The notes under the pieces are model-generated. The model was not told where the DNA came from. It worked only from the letters and a program-made list of their open reading frames with translations, and did not search any database. 64,000 bases of DNA from Frateuria terrea (GTDB lineage Bacteria > Pseudomonadota > Gammaproteobacteria > Xanthomonadales > Rhodanobacteraceae). The DNA lies in NCBI RefSeq assembly GCF_900115705.1, contig NZ_FOXL01000002.1:248001-312000 (forward strand). The letters are read 5' to 3'. Below, one piece after another: positions 7,313-56,000 of this stretch (positions are counted from its first letter, which is position 1; every line of letters begins with the position of its first letter). A program made the position numbers and the translations under genes.

Positions 7313-7813
7313 ATGAAGAACGACGCTCCGCACGACGATGCCGACCTGCGCAAGCTCGGCGAACTCATCGACGACATCGAGGTGGCCATGCTCACCACCG
7401 TGGCCGCCGACGGCTCGCTCGTCAGCCGCCCGCTGCAGACGCTGAAGCTCACGGCCGACGGCGACCTGGTGTTCTTCACCGCCGCCGACAGCCCCAAGGT
7501 CGGCCAGCTCACCGACGACCTCGACGTAAACCTCGCCTACGCCAACCAGGACGACAAATGCTACGTGTCCGTGCGTGGACGGGCGCGGATCAACCGCGAC
7601 CAGGCACTGATCGAGGAGCTTTGGTCACCCGCGCAGAACGTGTTCTTCTCAGGCAAGGACGATCCCAACCTCACCGTGCTGCGTGTACGTGTGCGCGATG
7701 CGATGTACTGGGAGTCGGCGGGCAACTTCGTGGAGCGTGTGCTCGACTTTGCGCGCGGCATGTGGAGCGAGCAGCCGCGCGACCTGGGGCACCAGGGACA
7801 CCTGCACGGCTGA
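7313..7813 (+). CDS. Pyridoxamine 5'-phosphate oxidase-like general stress protein
   Basis: A 166-residue split-barrel protein of the general stress protein 26 type (pyridoxamine-oxidase-like fold, usually flavin-binding). Family features are DIEVAMLTTVAADGSLVSRPLQTL at the N-terminus, LVFFTAADSPKVGQL, and the C-terminal YWESAGNFVERVLDFA. A GGAGG ends exactly where an upstream in-frame ATG begins, so the second ATG, 9 nt after GGAGG, is the proper start. The physiological substrate of this family is not settled; related proteins bind FMN or FAD and respond to stress. It is a single gene convergent with the histidine kinase on the other strand. Confidence 0.85.
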   Translation: MKNDAPHDDADLRKLGELIDDIEVAMLTTVAADGSLVSRPLQTLKLTADGDLVFFTAADSPKVGQLTDDLDVNLAYANQDDKCYVSVRGRARINRDQALIEELWSPAQNVFFSGKDDPNLTVLRVRVRDAMYWESAGNFVERVLDFARGMWSEQPRDLGHQGHLHG

Positions 7814-7819
7814 CCGGCG

Positions 7820-10381
7820 TCAGGCGCCTTCCAGTACCTGCCGCAGCTTTCGGCCCAGCTCGTCGAGCGTGTACGGCTTGCCCAGCAGCGGTGCGTCCTC
7901 TTCCAGCGTGCCATTGTGGCGGGTGGCCGCGGGCGAGTAGCCGGTGGTGAACAACACTTTCAGACCCGGCCGGCGCCGGCGCGCTTCCGTGGCAAGCCGG
8001 CGTCCATCGGTTCCGGGCATGACCACGTCGGTGAACAGCAGCGCGATCTCCGGGTGCGTGTCGAGCATGTCCAGCGCAGCCTCGGCGCCGTCGGCCTGCA
8101 GTACTCGATAGCCCAGCTCGCGCAAGGCCTCGGCGTTGACCTGGCGTACTGCCGGCTCGTCGTCCACCAGCAGGATCAGCTCCTGCCGCCCGACCGGCAA
8201 CGGCGGCGCGGAAATGCCCGCCTCCGGCGCATTCATCTTGCCGCTCATCCGCGGCAGGTACACCTTGACGCTGGTACCGCGACCGGGCTCCGAGTAGATC
8301 GTCACGTGGCCGCCGGACTGTCTCACGAAGCCATATACCTGGCTCAGGCCAAGCCCCGTGCCCTGCCCCGCCTGCTTGGTCGTGAAGAACGGATCGAACG
8401 CGCGCGCGGCCACCTCCGGCGCCATGCCGACGCCAGTGTCGCTTACCGTGATCGACACATACTCGCCCGCTTCCATGTCCGGGTGGCTGGCGGCATAGCG
8501 CCGGTCGAGCGTGGCGTTCGCCGTCTCGATGGCCAGCCGCCCGCCGCCCCGCATGGCATCGCGGGCGTTGACCGCAAGGTTGAGAACCACGTTCTCGAGC
8601 TGGTTCGCGTCGACCAGCGTCGGCCACAGCCCCTGCGCAAGCACGACTTCAAGGCGGATGTCCGCGCCGATCGCATGACGCAGCAGCTCGTACATGCCTG
8701 CCACCAGTGCGTTGGCGTCCAGCGGCTGCGGGTTGAGCGGTTGCTGGCGGGCGAAGGCGAGCAGGCGCTGGGTCAGCGTGGCTGCGCGATCGGCCGCCTC
8801 CATGGCGTTGTCCGCGTGCCGTCGTTCGGCGGATCCTTCCGGGAGGCGGCGCTTGAGCAGGTCGAGCGAGCCGATCACCACCGCCAGCATGTTGTTGAAA
8901 TCGTGCGCGATGCCGCCGGTCAGGTGACCGACCGCTTCCATCTTCTGGCTCTGCCGCAATGCCGCCTCGGCCTTGGCCAGCGCCTGTGCCTGCTCCTTCT
9001 GCTCGGAGACGTCGCGACCACTGGCGTAGATCGTGTCCTCGTCCTGGCTGGCCACCCAGGAAATGCAGCGATAGCTGCCATCCCTGTGCCGCATGCGGTT
9101 CTCGAACGCGGGCCCCTTGGCCAGGTTGGCGAAGAATGGCCGCTCGCCCGCAGGACGGTCGTCCGGATGGACGAACTCGTAGGCCCGATGCCCGACCACG
9201 TCCGCCGCCTGCCAGCCCAGCACCGTGCTCCAGGCATCGCTGACCTGCAGGAAATAGCCATGCTCATCGACCACCGCCTGCAGGTCGCGCGAATGCTTCC
9301 AGGCACGATCGCGTTCGCGCGTGCGCGCCTCGACACGCTGTTCCAGCGTTTCATTGAGTTCGCGCAGGCGGTCCTCGGCAGCACGGCGCTCGTCGATCTC
9401 GCGCTGCGCCACGGCGTAGAGGTTGGCATTGTCGATGGCGATGGCCGCGTGCGCGGCGATGCCGACCATCAACCGCTCGTGCCGCAGCGAAAACCGTCCA
9501 GGCTCGGGATGGCCGAAGAAAAGCCCGCCCAATACCCGGCCCGAGCGTGAAACCACCGGCACGGCAAGGTAACTGCGCACCGGCGGATGGCCCGGTGGCA
9601 GGCCGTGGTAAGGCGGGCTCTTGCCATACCGGGGATCGAGTAGCACGTCATCGCAGCGGACCAGGCTCTCGCCGGCGAGCGTGGGCCGGAACAATACGCT
9701 GGTGCGCGGCATCGGATAACGGTCGAACGCATGCCGGTCGACGCCGGAGAGGGTATAGAGCAGCATGCTCTCGCCCGCCTCGTTGGTGGTGTTGTAGAAG
9801 AACGCGCCCATGCTGGCGCCGATGAGCGCGACGCCGGCATCGGTGACCGTCTGGACGATGCGTTCCAGCTCCAGTTCGCTGGCCACCGTCGAGCCGACGC
9901 GGTTGAGCGTTTCCAACGCCTGGCTCTCCTCGCGCAAGGCCTGCTCGGCCTGCACGCGCGCCGTGTCGTCGTGCATGGTGAGCACCGCGCCGAGCGGCCT
10001 GCCATCGCCGTCGAGAATCGGGCGCGCCGAGCCCTGCGCGATGACTTCGGTGCCGTCCGCGCGGCGGATCCGCCAGCGCGCATCAGCGACGACCTCGCCG
10101 TCCAGCACCGCGCGCGCCAGCGGCAGCCGTCCGGGCGCATACGGCTGGCCATCCTCGGTCAACAACTGGTAGGCGCTGGCATAGTCGCCCGGCCCGACGT
10201 CGAGCTGGCGAACTCCGTGCAGGCGCGCCGCGGCCTCGTTCACGTAGGTGATCCGCCCGGCCGTGTCGGTCAGGATCACGCCTTCGGCCAGCTGGCCCAG
10301 GATCGCCGCCTGCTCGGCCGCAAGCAGGGCACGCGAGAGGCCGCCGTGCGCGCCTTCAGCTTCGGTCACGGCAATTACCAC
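7820..10381 (-). CDS. Hybrid sensor histidine kinase/response regulator (PAS-GAF-PAS-HisKA-HATPase-REC)
   Basis: An 853-residue cytoplasmic hybrid kinase with no transmembrane segment. Domain order: PAS (about 25-130, with VILTDTAGRITYVNEAAARLHG), GAF (about 175-325), a short coiled coil, a second PAS (about 370-480), HisKA with the phospho-acceptor His493 in GGIAHDFNNML, an HATPase with NARDAM, DTGVGM and GTGLGL boxes, and a C-terminal receiver whose phospho-aspartate is Asp785 in LLFTDVVMP. The GTG start is weakly supported: no clear Shine-Dalgarno is present. It lies 116 bp downstream of argH in the same direction, so read-through from the arginine operon is possible. No output partner is adjacent. 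The input signal cannot be deduced; soluble PAS/GAF kinases often sense redox or small ligands. Confidence 0.9.
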   Translation of the reverse strand: MVIAVTEAEGAHGGLSRALLAAEQAAILGQLAEGVILTDTAGRITYVNEAAARLHGVRQLDVGPGDYASAYQLLTEDGQPYAPGRLPLARAVLDGEVVADARWRIRRADGTEVIAQGSARPILDGDGRPLGAVLTMHDDTARVQAEQALREESQALETLNRVGSTVASELELERIVQTVTDAGVALIGASMGAFFYNTTNEAGESMLLYTLSGVDRHAFDRYPMPRTSVLFRPTLAGESLVRCDDVLLDPRYGKSPPYHGLPPGHPPVRSYLAVPVVSRSGRVLGGLFFGHPEPGRFSLRHERLMVGIAAHAAIAIDNANLYAVAQREIDERRAAEDRLRELNETLEQRVEARTRERDRAWKHSRDLQAVVDEHGYFLQVSDAWSTVLGWQAADVVGHRAYEFVHPDDRPAGERPFFANLAKGPAFENRMRHRDGSYRCISWVASQDEDTIYASGRDVSEQKEQAQALAKAEAALRQSQKMEAVGHLTGGIAHDFNNMLAVVIGSLDLLKRRLPEGSAERRHADNAMEAADRAATLTQRLLAFARQQPLNPQPLDANALVAGMYELLRHAIGADIRLEVVLAQGLWPTLVDANQLENVVLNLAVNARDAMRGGGRLAIETANATLDRRYAASHPDMEAGEYVSITVSDTGVGMAPEVAARAFDPFFTTKQAGQGTGLGLSQVYGFVRQSGGHVTIYSEPGRGTSVKVYLPRMSGKMNAPEAGISAPPLPVGRQELILLVDDEPAVRQVNAEALRELGYRVLQADGAEAALDMLDTHPEIALLFTDVVMPGTDGRRLATEARRRRPGLKVLFTTGYSPAATRHNGTLEEDAPLLGKPYTLDELGRKLRQVLEGA

Positions 10382-52783: not shown

Positions 52784-53452
52784 TCAGGTGGCGCGACCCG
52801 ATTCCCTGGACAGCAGCCGCCCGCCCAGCGCGGCATTGGCCGCGACCACCATGCCCACCGCGAGCGCATGCATCGCCAGGTCGGTGGCCGCCGCATCGAA
52901 GGCGTGGCAGATCTCCAGCAGGCTGGCCGAGGCCGCTGCGCTGGCCAATCCGACCATGACTGCGGTGAGCACCGGCCGCAGCGGGCAGGCGCGGCGCAGC
53001 AGCGCGATCAGCAGCACCGAGAGCGGCACGGAGAACGCGATGATGAAGAACAGGCAGTCGCCAGCCTCCGGTGCGCTGGCCACGTGGGTGGCCGGTGCGA
53101 CCCAGCCGCGCAGGCAGCCCAGCCCGCTGGCACCGATCCACAGCAACGCCGGCGCCAGCGGCAGCCAGGCCCAGGCGGTCCGGCGCCCGGGAACGGCCAG
53201 CGCGAAGGCGGCCCAGGCGGCGGCAACCGCGGTCAGCACCGCGCCCAGGCCAGCCCAGCCCAGGTCCGGCGCACCGGCCCAGCGCGCAAGCATCGGCGCG
53301 GTACCGTAACGCGCGAACAGTGCCACCGCGAAGACGGCGACCACCACCAGCCAGCCCAGCGTGCGCAGCCACGGTGGGCGCAGCCGGCGCACCGGCGCCA
53401 GTTCGGCGCCTAGCGAGGCTATCAGGCGGTCGTGGGCGTGCGGATCGGCCAT
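52784..53452 (-). CDS. nrsF: NrsF-type membrane anti-sigma factor
   Basis: A 222-residue membrane protein with about six transmembrane helices after a short cytoplasmic N-terminus (MADPHAHDRLIASLGAELAPVRRL). The pattern, including paired cysteines such as GCLRG and DCLFF, matches the DUF1109/NrsF family, which in Caulobacter inhibits the ECF sigma factor SigF and loses that hold when cysteines sense heavy metals or oxidants. Its start lies 4 bp after the stop of the sigma gene. Confidence 0.85.
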   Translation of the reverse strand: MADPHAHDRLIASLGAELAPVRRLRPPWLRTLGWLVVVAVFAVALFARYGTAPMLARWAGAPDLGWAGLGAVLTAVAAAWAAFALAVPGRRTAWAWLPLAPALLWIGASGLGCLRGWVAPATHVASAPEAGDCLFFIIAFSVPLSVLLIALLRRACPLRPVLTAVMVGLASAAASASLLEICHAFDAAATDLAMHALAVGMVVAANAALGGRLLSRESGRAT

Positions 53453-53456
53453 CGTT

Positions 53457-54107
53457 CTAGTCCTCTCCGTGGATGCGCCCGCGCAGGGCCTTCAAAGCGC
53501 GGTGCAGGTTCACCTTGAGCGCGCCGGTGCTGCGGCCGGTCCGTGACGCGGCTTCCTCCAGCGTCAGCTCCTTCAGCCCGAGCTGTTCGACCGCCTCGCG
53601 CTGGCCTGGCGGCAGTTCGTCGATCGCCGCGCGAAGGCGGCGCGCCTGCTGTGCGCGTTCGCTCTCGGCGCTGGCGTCCTGCTCGTCCGGATGCAGCGCC
53701 ACCGCCACCTCGTCGCTGACCTCGCGGTGCGCCTGCCGACCGCTGCGACGCAGGCCGTCGATCGCGCGGCGGCCAGCCAGCGCCGCCAGCCAGGCGTCAT
53801 AGGAACGGGCCGGATCGTAGGTGTGGCGCACGCGATGGATCGTCAGCAGGGTCTCCTGCACCACGTCGTCCAGCTGGTCGTGGCCGACGCCCTGGCGACG
53901 CGCGACGGCGCGTATCAACCCCACCGAATCGGCCAGCACGCGCTCGTAGGCGCGCCGGTCGCCCGCCTGGGCGGCCGCCATCCACGCCGCGCGGCGGCGT
54001 TCGGGAGTCTCGTTGGCGCGGTCGGCTGGCACGGCCGGATCGATGCTCGCCCGGAGGGGGAAGCATGCATCTGGAACCATGAAGGCGGTGGCGGTCAAGT
54101 CCTGCAT
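53457..54107 (-). CDS. sigF: SigF-type ECF sigma factor
   Basis: A sigma-70 ECF protein of about 216 residues. Region 2 includes QDDVVQETLLTIHRVRHTYDPARSY-type sequence (DQLDDVVQETLLTIHR), and region 4 the helix-turn-helix LTLEEAASRTGRSTGALKVNLHRALKAL. The paired NrsF gene identifies it as SigF-like. The start is uncertain (ATG used; a second ATG nine codons later would also do), but a GTAACC-N16-CGAA element 29 bp upstream supports one of these two. Its predicted regulon here includes the divergent dipZ-msrB. Confidence 0.88.
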   Translation of the reverse strand: MQDLTATAFMVPDACFPLRASIDPAVPADRANETPERRRAAWMAAAQAGDRRAYERVLADSVGLIRAVARRQGVGHDQLDDVVQETLLTIHRVRHTYDPARSYDAWLAALAGRRAIDGLRRSGRQAHREVSDEVAVALHPDEQDASAESERAQQARRLRAAIDELPPGQREAVEQLGLKELTLEEAASRTGRSTGALKVNLHRALKALRGRIHGED

Positions 54108-54135
54108 CGGGCCGAGCTTGGAGGCATGCGGTGGA

Positions 54136-54161
54136 TTCGCCGCATCCGGCGCCGGGGTTAC
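54136..54161 (-). promoter_or_regulatory. SigF-type promoter for sigF-nrsF
   Basis: On the minus strand GTAACC (-35) and CGAA (-10) are separated by exactly 16 bp. The -10 is 29 bp before the sigF start. The same element faces the other way 64 bp further on. It resembles the GTAACC/CGAA promoter I recall for SigF of Caulobacter. Confidence 0.8.
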
Positions 54162-54224
54162 GCCGTATGCGAGAACGTATCGCCGGTGGGCCGTCCGCCG
54201 CACGGTGGCCGTTCGCGCCACGAT

Positions 54225-54250
54225 GTAACCGCCCACCCCACCCCGCCGAA
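54225..54250 (+). promoter_or_regulatory. SigF-type promoter for dipZ-msrB
   Basis: GTAACC (-35), 16 bp, then CGAA (-10), the same spacing and bases as the opposing element. The -10 ends 31 bp before the dipZ ATG, giving a leader near 25 nt. Confidence 0.8.
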
Positions 54251-54281
54251 TACCCACCACACTCCCGTGGAATCCAACCCC

Positions 54282-56000
54282 ATGCTCCTGCTGATCCTTG
54301 CCTACCTGGGCGGCGTCCTGACCATCCTCAGCCCGTGCATCCTGCCGGTGCTGCCGTTCGTCTTCGCCCGTGCCGACCGGCCGTTCGCGCGCAACGGCCT
54401 GCCGATGCTGCTGGGCATGGCGCTCACCTTCGCGCTGGTCGCCACGCTGGCGGCGGTCGGCGGCGGCTGGGCGATCCGCGCCAACCAGTACGGCCGCGCG
54501 ATCGCGCTGGTGGTGCTGGCGCTGCTCGGACTCACCCTGCTTTCGACCCGCGTCGCCGAATGGCTGACGCGGCCGTTCGTCGCGCTGGGCAACCGGCTCT
54601 CGCAGCGGTCGGACAGCGAAGGCTCGGCATGGTCCGCCGCCGGCCTGGGCGTAGCCACCGGCCTGTTGTGGGCGCCCTGCGCGGGCCCGATCCTGGGGCT
54701 GCTGCTTACCGGCGCCGCGCTCAACGGCGCCAGCGTGCAGACCACGCTGCTGCTGCTCACCTACGCCGCGGGCGCGGCCACCTCGCTGGCGCTGGCGCTG
54801 TTGATCGGTGGGAAAGTGTTCGCCCTGATGAAGCGCTCGCTCGGCGCCGGTGAATGGGTGCGCCGCGCCCTCGGCATGCTGGTGCTGGTCGGTGTGGCGG
54901 CGATCGCGCTGGGTCTGGACACCGGCCTGCTGACCCGCGTGGCCCTGGCCAACACCGGCGGCCTTGAGCAGAAGCTGCTTGATGCCACTCGCCCGTCGCC
55001 AGCGCCGGAGCCGGTGCACGCAACCGGTGCACCGCTGCCGGTCGAAGGCGAGATGCCCTCGCTGGCCGGCGCCACCGGCTGGTTCAATTCCCCGCCGCTC
55101 ACCCGCCAGGCGCTGCGCGGAAAGGTAGTGCTGGTCGACTTCTGGACCTATTCCTGCATCAACTGCCTGCGCTCGCTGCCCTACGTGCACGGCTGGTACG
55201 ACAAGTACAAGGACCACGGCCTGGTGGTGATCGGCGTGCACGCGCCGGAGTTCGCCTTCGAGAAGGAGCCGTCGAACGTGGCTCAGGCGGTGAAGGAGCT
55301 CGGCGTGGGCTACCCCGTCGCGCTCGACAACGACTACGCCATCTGGCAGGGCTTCGACAACCAGTATTGGCCGGCGCACTACTTCATCGACGCGAAGGGA
55401 AAGATCCGCGCGCACCATTTCGGCGAGGGCGACTACGCGCAGAGCGAGGACACCATCCGCCAGCTGCTCACCGAGGCGGGCTATGGCGACCTGCCCGGCG
55501 GCTACGTGCAGCCCGGCGCGAAGGGTGCGCAGGCGGCCGGCTCGGGCGACGACATGCGCTCGCCGGAAACCTACGTCGGCTATGCCCGCAGCGCGCACTT
55601 CGCCGGAGGTCAGGTCGCCCATGACGACGCCTGGGACTACCGCGCGCCGGCCACGCTGCTGCCCGGCCAGTGGTCGCTCGACGGCCGCTGGACCGTGCAT
55701 GCCGAAAACGCCGTGCTGGACCGTGCGAACGGTGGCATCGCCTATCGCTTCCGCGGCCGCGACCTGCATCTGGTGCTCGGCCCGGGCGCGGACGGCAAGC
55801 CGGTGCGCTTCCGCGTCACCCTCGACGGCAAGCCGCCGGGCGCGGATCACGGCATGGACGTCGACGCGGACGGCTACGGCACCGTCACCGAGCAGCGCCT
55901 GTACCAGCTCGTGCGGCAGAAGCGCGGCCAGGGCGAGCGGCTGTTCAGGATCACCTTCCTCGACCCGGGCGTGCGCGCGTACGCCTTCACCTTCGGCTGA
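54282..56000 (+). CDS. dipZ: DipZ-type thiol:disulfide interchange protein
   Basis: A 572-residue inner-membrane protein with three parts: a CcdA/DsbD-like six-helix domain (about 1-220) with redox cysteines Cys19 (SPCILPVLP) and Cys133 (WAPCAGP); a periplasmic thioredoxin-like TlpA domain with Cys292-Ile-Asn-Cys295 (YSCINCLRS); and a C-terminal beta-sandwich (about 440-572) like the mycobacterial DipZ tail. Together they would carry electrons from cytoplasmic thioredoxin to periplasmic proteins. msrB follows by 19 bp. No Shine-Dalgarno is visible; a GTG five codons upstream is possible. Confidence 0.88.
   Translation: MLLLILAYLGGVLTILSPCILPVLPFVFARADRPFARNGLPMLLGMALTFALVATLAAVGGGWAIRANQYGRAIALVVLALLGLTLLSTRVAEWLTRPFVALGNRLSQRSDSEGSAWSAAGLGVATGLLWAPCAGPILGLLLTGAALNGASVQTTLLLLTYAAGAATSLALALLIGGKVFALMKRSLGAGEWVRRALGMLVLVGVAAIALGLDTGLLTRVALANTGGLEQKLLDATRPSPAPEPVHATGAPLPVEGEMPSLAGATGWFNSPPLTRQALRGKVVLVDFWTYSCINCLRSLPYVHGWYDKYKDHGLVVIGVHAPEFAFEKEPSNVAQAVKELGVGYPVALDNDYAIWQGFDNQYWPAHYFIDAKGKIRAHHFGEGDYAQSEDTIRQLLTEAGYGDLPGGYVQPGAKGAQAAGSGDDMRSPETYVGYARSAHFAGGQVAHDDAWDYRAPATLLPGQWSLDGRWTVHAENAVLDRANGGIAYRFRGRDLHLVLGPGADGKPVRFRVTLDGKPPGADHGMDVDADGYGTVTEQRLYQLVRQKRGQGERLFRITFLDPGVRAYAFTFG

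Follow-up and report, generated by a model that had tools for sequence, protein, structure and literature searches.

The region between sigF and dipZ in Frateuria terrea very probably holds two separate, opposed promoters of the ECF16 type, both read by SigF, one serving autoregulation of sigF-nrsF and the other expression of dipZ-msrB. Both appear to belong to a small regulon for envelope methionine repair. The promoters, their conservation and the genes concerned were read directly from sequence, starting from a 64,000-nt stretch of contig NZ_FOXL01000002.1 (the window). In what follows L, G, g and C numbers denote loci, genomes, genera and contigs.

Opposed promoters and the genes they face

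As the original prediction had it, the same GTAACC-N16-CGAA element lies on both strands, with a spacer of exactly 16 in each (Table 1). The sigF and dipZ ATGs are separated by the expected 174 bp, and the -10 elements end, as described, about 30 bp from the start codons: 28 nt before the sigF ATG (54107) on the minus strand and 31 nt before the dipZ ATG (54282) on the plus strand, where an in-frame GTG at 54267 would shorten the distance to 16 nt. A search of the window for GTAACC-N15-17-CGAA returned two matches, one per strand, which are this pair only. Across 100 dinucleotide shuffles of the window the mean was 0.04 matches, and two or more occurred in 1 of 100, bearing out the claim that a double match by chance is very unlikely. 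The element had been matched to the SigF promoter of Caulobacter, and it is identical to the SigF-binding sequence printed for that organism, GTAACC-N16-CGAA (PMC3511200). It also fits the reported ECF group 16 consensus, given as tGTAACc-N16-CGAA (PMC3420878) or (T/C)GTAAC-N17-CGAA (PMC8315932).

Table 1. Coordinates of the putative promoters, genes and NrsF cysteine codons in the window
Feature	Position	Strand	Details
Putative ECF16/SigF-type promoter of sigF-nrsF	54136..54161	-	-35 GTAACC 54161-54156; -10 CGAA 54139-54136
Putative ECF16/SigF-type promoter of dipZ-msrB	54225..54250	+	-35 GTAACC 54225-54230; -10 CGAA 54247-54250
sigF, ECF sigma factor, 216 aa	53457..54107	-	Pfam regions 2 and 4
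nrsF, six-helix membrane anti-sigma factor, divergent type, 222 aa	52784..53452	-	PF06532, E 2.1e-17
dipZ, membrane DsbD-like domain and periplasmic thioredoxin-like domains, 572 aa	54282..56000	+	DsbD_TM, AhpC/Redoxin, Thioredoxin_10
msrB, twin-arginine-like leader (by eye), 201 aa	56020..56625	+	PF01641 (MsrB/SelR); TIGR00357 over cut-off
NrsF Cys113 codon	53114..53116	-	81/81 of the window's NrsF type; absent in four canonical rows and G010
NrsF Cys133 codon	53054..53056	-	81/81 of the type; 27/27 aligned rows, canonical included; aligns with first canonical cysteine

The names sigF, nrsF, dipZ and msrB hold, and Pfam domains agree with them. Among the NCBIfam models shown, the SigF protein exceeds the cut-off of the general sigma70-ECF model only; the best specific models fall below theirs. 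NrsF, encoded next to sigF, scores 64.1 bits against PF06532 (cut-off 26.8). Its structure model has six long helices plus short ones (pLDDT 86.7, pTM 0.83). In the window, as in the genus loci, nrsF is followed by an HD-domain gene.

Conservation of the pair

Both elements are present in all 20 relatives with the window's NrsF type whose regions were examined. Scanning a collection of species genomes with an NrsF alignment yielded 103 relatives, of which 80 were retained. Of these, 76 are titled Frateuria, Rhodanobacter, Dyella, Fulvimonas, Rhodanobacteraceae, Lysobacteraceae or Lysobacterales; the rest are three unplaced Proteobacteria bins and one genome titled Eremiobacteraeota. With one locus cut by a contig end (L185), 79 could be scored for the sigF-facing element, and all 79 have it with at most one mismatch (52 perfect). 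Among the 78 loci with a divergent dipZ or msrB, the element facing those genes occurs at N16 in 75 (66 perfect) and, perfectly, at N15 in the other three. Six loci have msrB without dipZ opposite sigF. The locus with neither gene, L204, has no facing element at fewer than two mismatches.

The spacing is the feature under constraint. N16 matches with at most one mismatch were found in 143 of 156 strand-regions; other spacers from N13 to N19 gave 0-6, the reversed pattern gave none, and 200 permuted cores averaged 1.2 (maximum 31). Because all 37 single mismatches fall at position 6 of the -35 element, the kept core is GTAAC-N17-CGAA.

The motif in the genome and genus

In the F. terrea genome (3.84 Mb, 16 contigs), GTAACC-N15-17-CGAA matches 16 times, against nine matches of the reversed pattern used as control. 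At N16 the numbers are five and one, and four of the five sites precede sigF or msr genes. Two of the five are the window pair; one each lies on C10, C5 and C11. An msrA begins 38 nt beyond the end of the C10 site; its product starts MIRRWFVLLPLAGALLAGCG and is lipoprotein-like by eye. The C5 site ends about 46 nt before a frame-broken gene similar to pyrimidine-dimer glycosylases (PF03013 on one piece, E 7.9e-13), after which come msrB and msrA, neither with a visible leader; since the broken gene stands between site and msrB, the tie of this site to the cytosolic msrB-msrA pair is weak. The C11 site, antisense inside a small-protein gene, was taken to be a chance match. In this genome the msrA and msrB models have two matches each, all downstream of an N16 site. 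The looser GTAAC-N17-CGAA adds C10:282140 and C15:145691; none of the ORFs inspected around these two was recognised as an msr or stress gene. The proposed clustering of genomic matches on msr genes was observed. The metal-stress part of that proposal is unsupported here, because no site in this genome was seen next to a recognised metal gene.

Six genomes of the genus contain 32 exact N16 sites, compared with 15 reversed-control matches. We assigned 22 of them: six to sigF, six to dipZ, six to lipoprotein msrA and four to positions upstream of cytosolic msrB-msrA. The remaining ten, eight of which were inspected, may be background matches or additional targets; none was assigned to sigF or an msr gene.

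The gene between the motif and the cytosolic msrB has decayed differently in four genomes of the genus (L116:3204-4882 on C5, L093, L076 and L094), with the motif retained. In G002 only a remnant of this gene is left, with 245 nt between the end of the motif and msrB. An Hsp20-like ORF (by eye) now lies between motif and msrB in L093 and L076. A perfect motif stands directly before a DoxX gene (PF07681) in L075 (G002:C1:682789-682814), a possible further SigF target, and a perfect motif in L087 (G005:C3:247536-247561) accompanies a gene similar to DoxX by eye in another frame. Another perfect copy, in L082 (G005:C2:223341-223366), precedes a carboxymuconolactone-decarboxylase/AhpD-like gene (PF02627). 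In L078 (G001) and L092 (G005) the motif lies some way upstream of alcohol/aldehyde dehydrogenase-like genes.

Wider regulon in relatives

Lipoprotein-type msrA carries the motif upstream in all 21 genomes of the window's NrsF type (20 perfect, one with one mismatch) among the best 30 places examined. The motif lies at most 105 nt before the start in these genomes; the G021 start is miscalled. None of the other nine of the best 30, three with canonical NrsF included, has the motif at fewer than two mismatches.

A third motif near the end of nrsF was found in 23 of the 80 loci. In 20 it precedes a gene for a secreted methionine-rich, MXKDX-like protein, in L228 one for a DUF2282 bufferin-like protein, and in L212 and L219 nothing recognisable. 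TIGR02953 was over cut-off in two of three MXKDX-like proteins tested. Of three MXKDX-model matches away from nrsF in other genomes, the one in L103 adjoins a perfect motif and those in L106 and L107 do not. None of the six genus genomes has an MXKDX match over cut-off, and no SigF motif within one mismatch was found at the weak match in the F. terrea genome (L109). That genome's sole match to the model, at 22 bits, is a secreted protein with MQGNG/MQSNG repeats (L119, about 2100-2951; C8:578094).

In five of the nine third-motif relatives of the examined set (L052, L058, L059, L061 and L064) the TAA stop of nrsF forms part of the GTAACC or GTAACT that would serve the following gene as -35 element. 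In L057 (about 7761-9040, G028) and L228:6757-7071 the third motif precedes a gene whose product is methionine-rich at its start and bufferin-like (DUF2282) at its end, and in L057 the bufferin-like gene is followed by a DUF692-like ORF (by eye).

We surveyed 117 family genomes, of which 57 have the window's NrsF type (66 matches less eight of the canonical type and one weak match, G010). The MsrP model was over cut-off in 29 of the 117: in none of the 57 and in 29 of the 60 others. By genus the split is 0 of 14 against 8 of 12 (Fisher p 3e-4, with genera not independent and phylogeny a confounder). Since it follows genera, few events may account for it. In the F. terrea genome itself the MsrP model has no match.

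Sub-cut-off matches to the MsrP model occur in 18 of the 57 genomes, 12 of them at 102-109 bits. We compared those 12 with 8 of the 11 comparable places in genomes without the window's NrsF type. In all 20 a cytochrome b561-like gene stands ahead of a molybdopterin-domain gene, which in the 12 encodes a shorter, related molybdoprotein; the layout is like that of MsrQP and the family is distinct. GTAAC-N17-CGAA stands before the cytochrome gene in nine of the 12 (eight with perfect GTAACC; motif-less are G089, G102 and G105) and in none of the eight. Within genus g24, among orthologous operons at 84-94 percent identity, the motif is present in the NrsF-bearing G028, G069 and G107 and missing from the two examined members that are absent from the listed NrsF matches, G095 and G119. 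That it tracks NrsF presence within one genus supports a working link. The nrsF loci of the nine show dipZ in G069, G078 and G092 and only msrB in G008, G028, G033, G072 and G107, with that of G084 cut by a contig end, so the pair is not a simple replacement for dipZ.

A divergent NrsF and its cysteines

The window's NrsF type scores about 60-81 bits against PF06532; within this family canonical NrsF reaches 226-242, and one second copy 98. The canonical, high-scoring type was seen in G014, G015, G036, G073, G100, G112, G124 and G135; a DUF692-like ORF (by eye) lies near it in L047 (G015).

The canonical anti-sigma factors have a pair of cysteines, C131/C181 in NrsF and C129/C179 in OsrA. For OsrA of Bradyrhizobium, binding is reported to require C129, and release upon H2O2 to require C179 (PMC3420878). 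In the window's type the first of the pair is kept (Table 1) and the second column is not, being His183 in 81 of 81. Cys182, beside that column, is present in 75 of 81; a one-residue shift of the alignment could match it, yet it is missing in six of 81. In the structure model Cys113 lies close to where helix 99-115 ends and Cys133 close to where helix 127-153 begins, and Cys182 is the last residue of helix 160-182. With a cytoplasmic N-terminus, an orientation we infer, all three would be on the periplasmic side. We predict that Cys113 and Cys133 form the redox switch. A Foldseek search of the model against the PDB returned nothing at E <= 0.001.

Alternative explanations

Accidental matches could be suspected from the 15 reversed-control N16 matches over the six genus genomes, a suspicion met by the shuffled expectation of 0.04 for the window and by retention of the element in 79 loci with other spacers nearly empty; conservation refutes chance, whose probability we consider negligible. 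The symmetric layout, with 12-16 nt between the -35 elements in many loci, could suggest instead one inverted operator for a dimeric regulator. Where each strand has a single element (73 loci), 36 different gaps occur, from -16 to 4389 (median 23), and the inner spacer stays at 16; this variation favours two promoters. Single copies before msrA and the MXKDX gene also argue against an operator, which we reject as highly improbable.

Other explanations keep SigF as the reader of both promoters. A second, SigF-independent promoter might supply most dipZ-msrB and sigF expression, since part of the Caulobacter sigF promoter activity is reported to outlast loss of SigF (PMC3511200). A consensus scan of 53400-54400, a weak test in GC-rich DNA, found no sigma-70-like site, and we regard this arrangement as unlikely. 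Less likely still is that the natural signal is a metal (copper, chromate or cadmium), with Msr induction secondary. Its precedent is Caulobacter SigF, which is reported to respond to chromium and cadmium and not to generators of reactive oxygen species (PMC3511200); in addition, a bufferin-like gene stands behind the third motif in two relatives (L057 and L228), and bufferins are described as copper-linked (PMC12452194). Against a metal signal are the recurring targets, namely msr genes, dipZ and MXKDX, and the responses described for EcfF, to H2O2 and singlet oxygen (PMC3420878), and for BcrS, to HOCl (PMC8315932). Some observations also count against two SigF promoters within a methionine-repair regulon. 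The C. crescentus sigF promoter is described as not exclusively SigF-dependent and not strongly autoregulated under metal stress, with msrA homologs unchanged (PMC3511200). Ten of the 32 genus sites lie outside sigF and msr genes, against 15 control matches; the C5 link is weak, three of the 12 b561-molybdoprotein operons are motif-less, and one of three MXKDX matches away from nrsF has the motif.

Proposed mechanism and significance

NrsF would keep SigF at the membrane until an oxidant on the periplasmic side of NrsF loosened its hold. Freed SigF would then transcribe its own operon, the exported MsrA and MsrB for repair of S- and R-sulfoxides, DipZ to bring electrons across the membrane for both enzymes, and, where present, a sacrificial methionine-rich protein. 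Transcription, export, electron transfer from DipZ to Msr, the signal and NrsF release are predicted from homology and by analogy with EcfF, BcrS and Caulobacter SigF. Autoregulation and anti-sigma gating are reported for Bradyrhizobium (PMC3420878), Brucella (PMC8315932) and, in part, Caulobacter (PMC3511200).

Because the same promoter precedes other methionine-repair genes in the F. terrea genome and in relatives, the sequences suggest that one switch runs envelope methionine repair in Rhodanobacteraceae. More tentatively, it is possible, if short of probable, both that one ECF16-type sigma factor runs the family's envelope methionine-redox network and that the NrsF switch has moved from a C131-C181-type pair to Cys113 and Cys133, on either side of the second periplasmic loop. 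That network would comprise lipoprotein MsrA, Tat-exported MsrB and fused DipZ, in many cases with a methionine-rich protein and in some with the b561-molybdoprotein, in genomes without MsrP proper.

MsrPQ is a well-studied route of envelope methionine repair. Here a family without MsrP proper would place both stereospecific Msr enzymes under one promoter, together with their electron donor and, in many cases, a scavenger. The regulon is compact, with few promoters, so that sigma factor, anti-sigma factor and signal can all be tested, and the change in NrsF cysteines opens oxidant sensing by ECF16 anti-sigma factors to point mutants.

Comparison with known systems

A close counterpart is EcfF-OsrA of Bradyrhizobium japonicum, with an ECF16 sigma factor, a DUF1109 anti-sigma factor and a near-identical promoter. 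Its reported regulon has three methionine sulfoxide reductases (one predicted periplasmic), a DsbD-like protein and a membrane-anchored thioredoxin, and its motif, GTAAC(g,a)-N14-15-(c,t)CG(t,a), differs from GTAACC-N16-CGAA (PMC3420878). In the window, by contrast, DipZ is one fused protein encoded divergently from sigF, and NrsF does not retain the second of the two OsrA cysteines.

Opposed promoters between sigma gene and target are described for Brucella bcrX/bcrS, and the ECF16 system BcrS-AbcS/bcrXQP also shares an MXKDX target and a methionine sulfoxide reductase in the regulon (PMC8315932). There, MsrQP homologs are in one operon with the MXKDX gene (PMC8315932), whereas the Rhodanobacteraceae type has exported MsrA, MsrB and DipZ, and its MXKDX gene, where present, has its own putative promoter. 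Divergent targets with matching motifs are likewise reported for Sinorhizobium RpoE7 (PMC6180224).

Caulobacter crescentus SigF-NrsF has the identical motif and encodes NrsF in the sigF operon. It is described as metal-responsive, with msrA homologs unchanged and an NrsF using C131 and C181 (PMC3511200), unlike the window's type. The perchlorate-island SigF/NrsF-yedYZ-mrpX system shares sigF/nrsF, a methionine-rich peptide and periplasmic methionine sulfoxide reduction, and two such islands have msrA/msrB homologs predicted to be exported (PMC4623255). YedYZ is the key reductase of those islands (PMC4623255), whereas no MsrP was over cut-off in the 57 genomes with the window's NrsF type. In the reductase, these genomes differ from the MrpX/BcrX-type reactive-chlorine scavenging module, which uses MsrPQ (YedYZ).

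Among the open-licence literature matches listed, no title or abstract start describes such a regulon in Rhodanobacteraceae. ECF16 control of Msr, named as a shared theme (PMC8315932), a proposed DsbD-like donor (PMC3420878) and exported msrA/msrB beside sigF/nrsF (PMC4623255) are already known; new here are the make-up of the regulon and the NrsF type.
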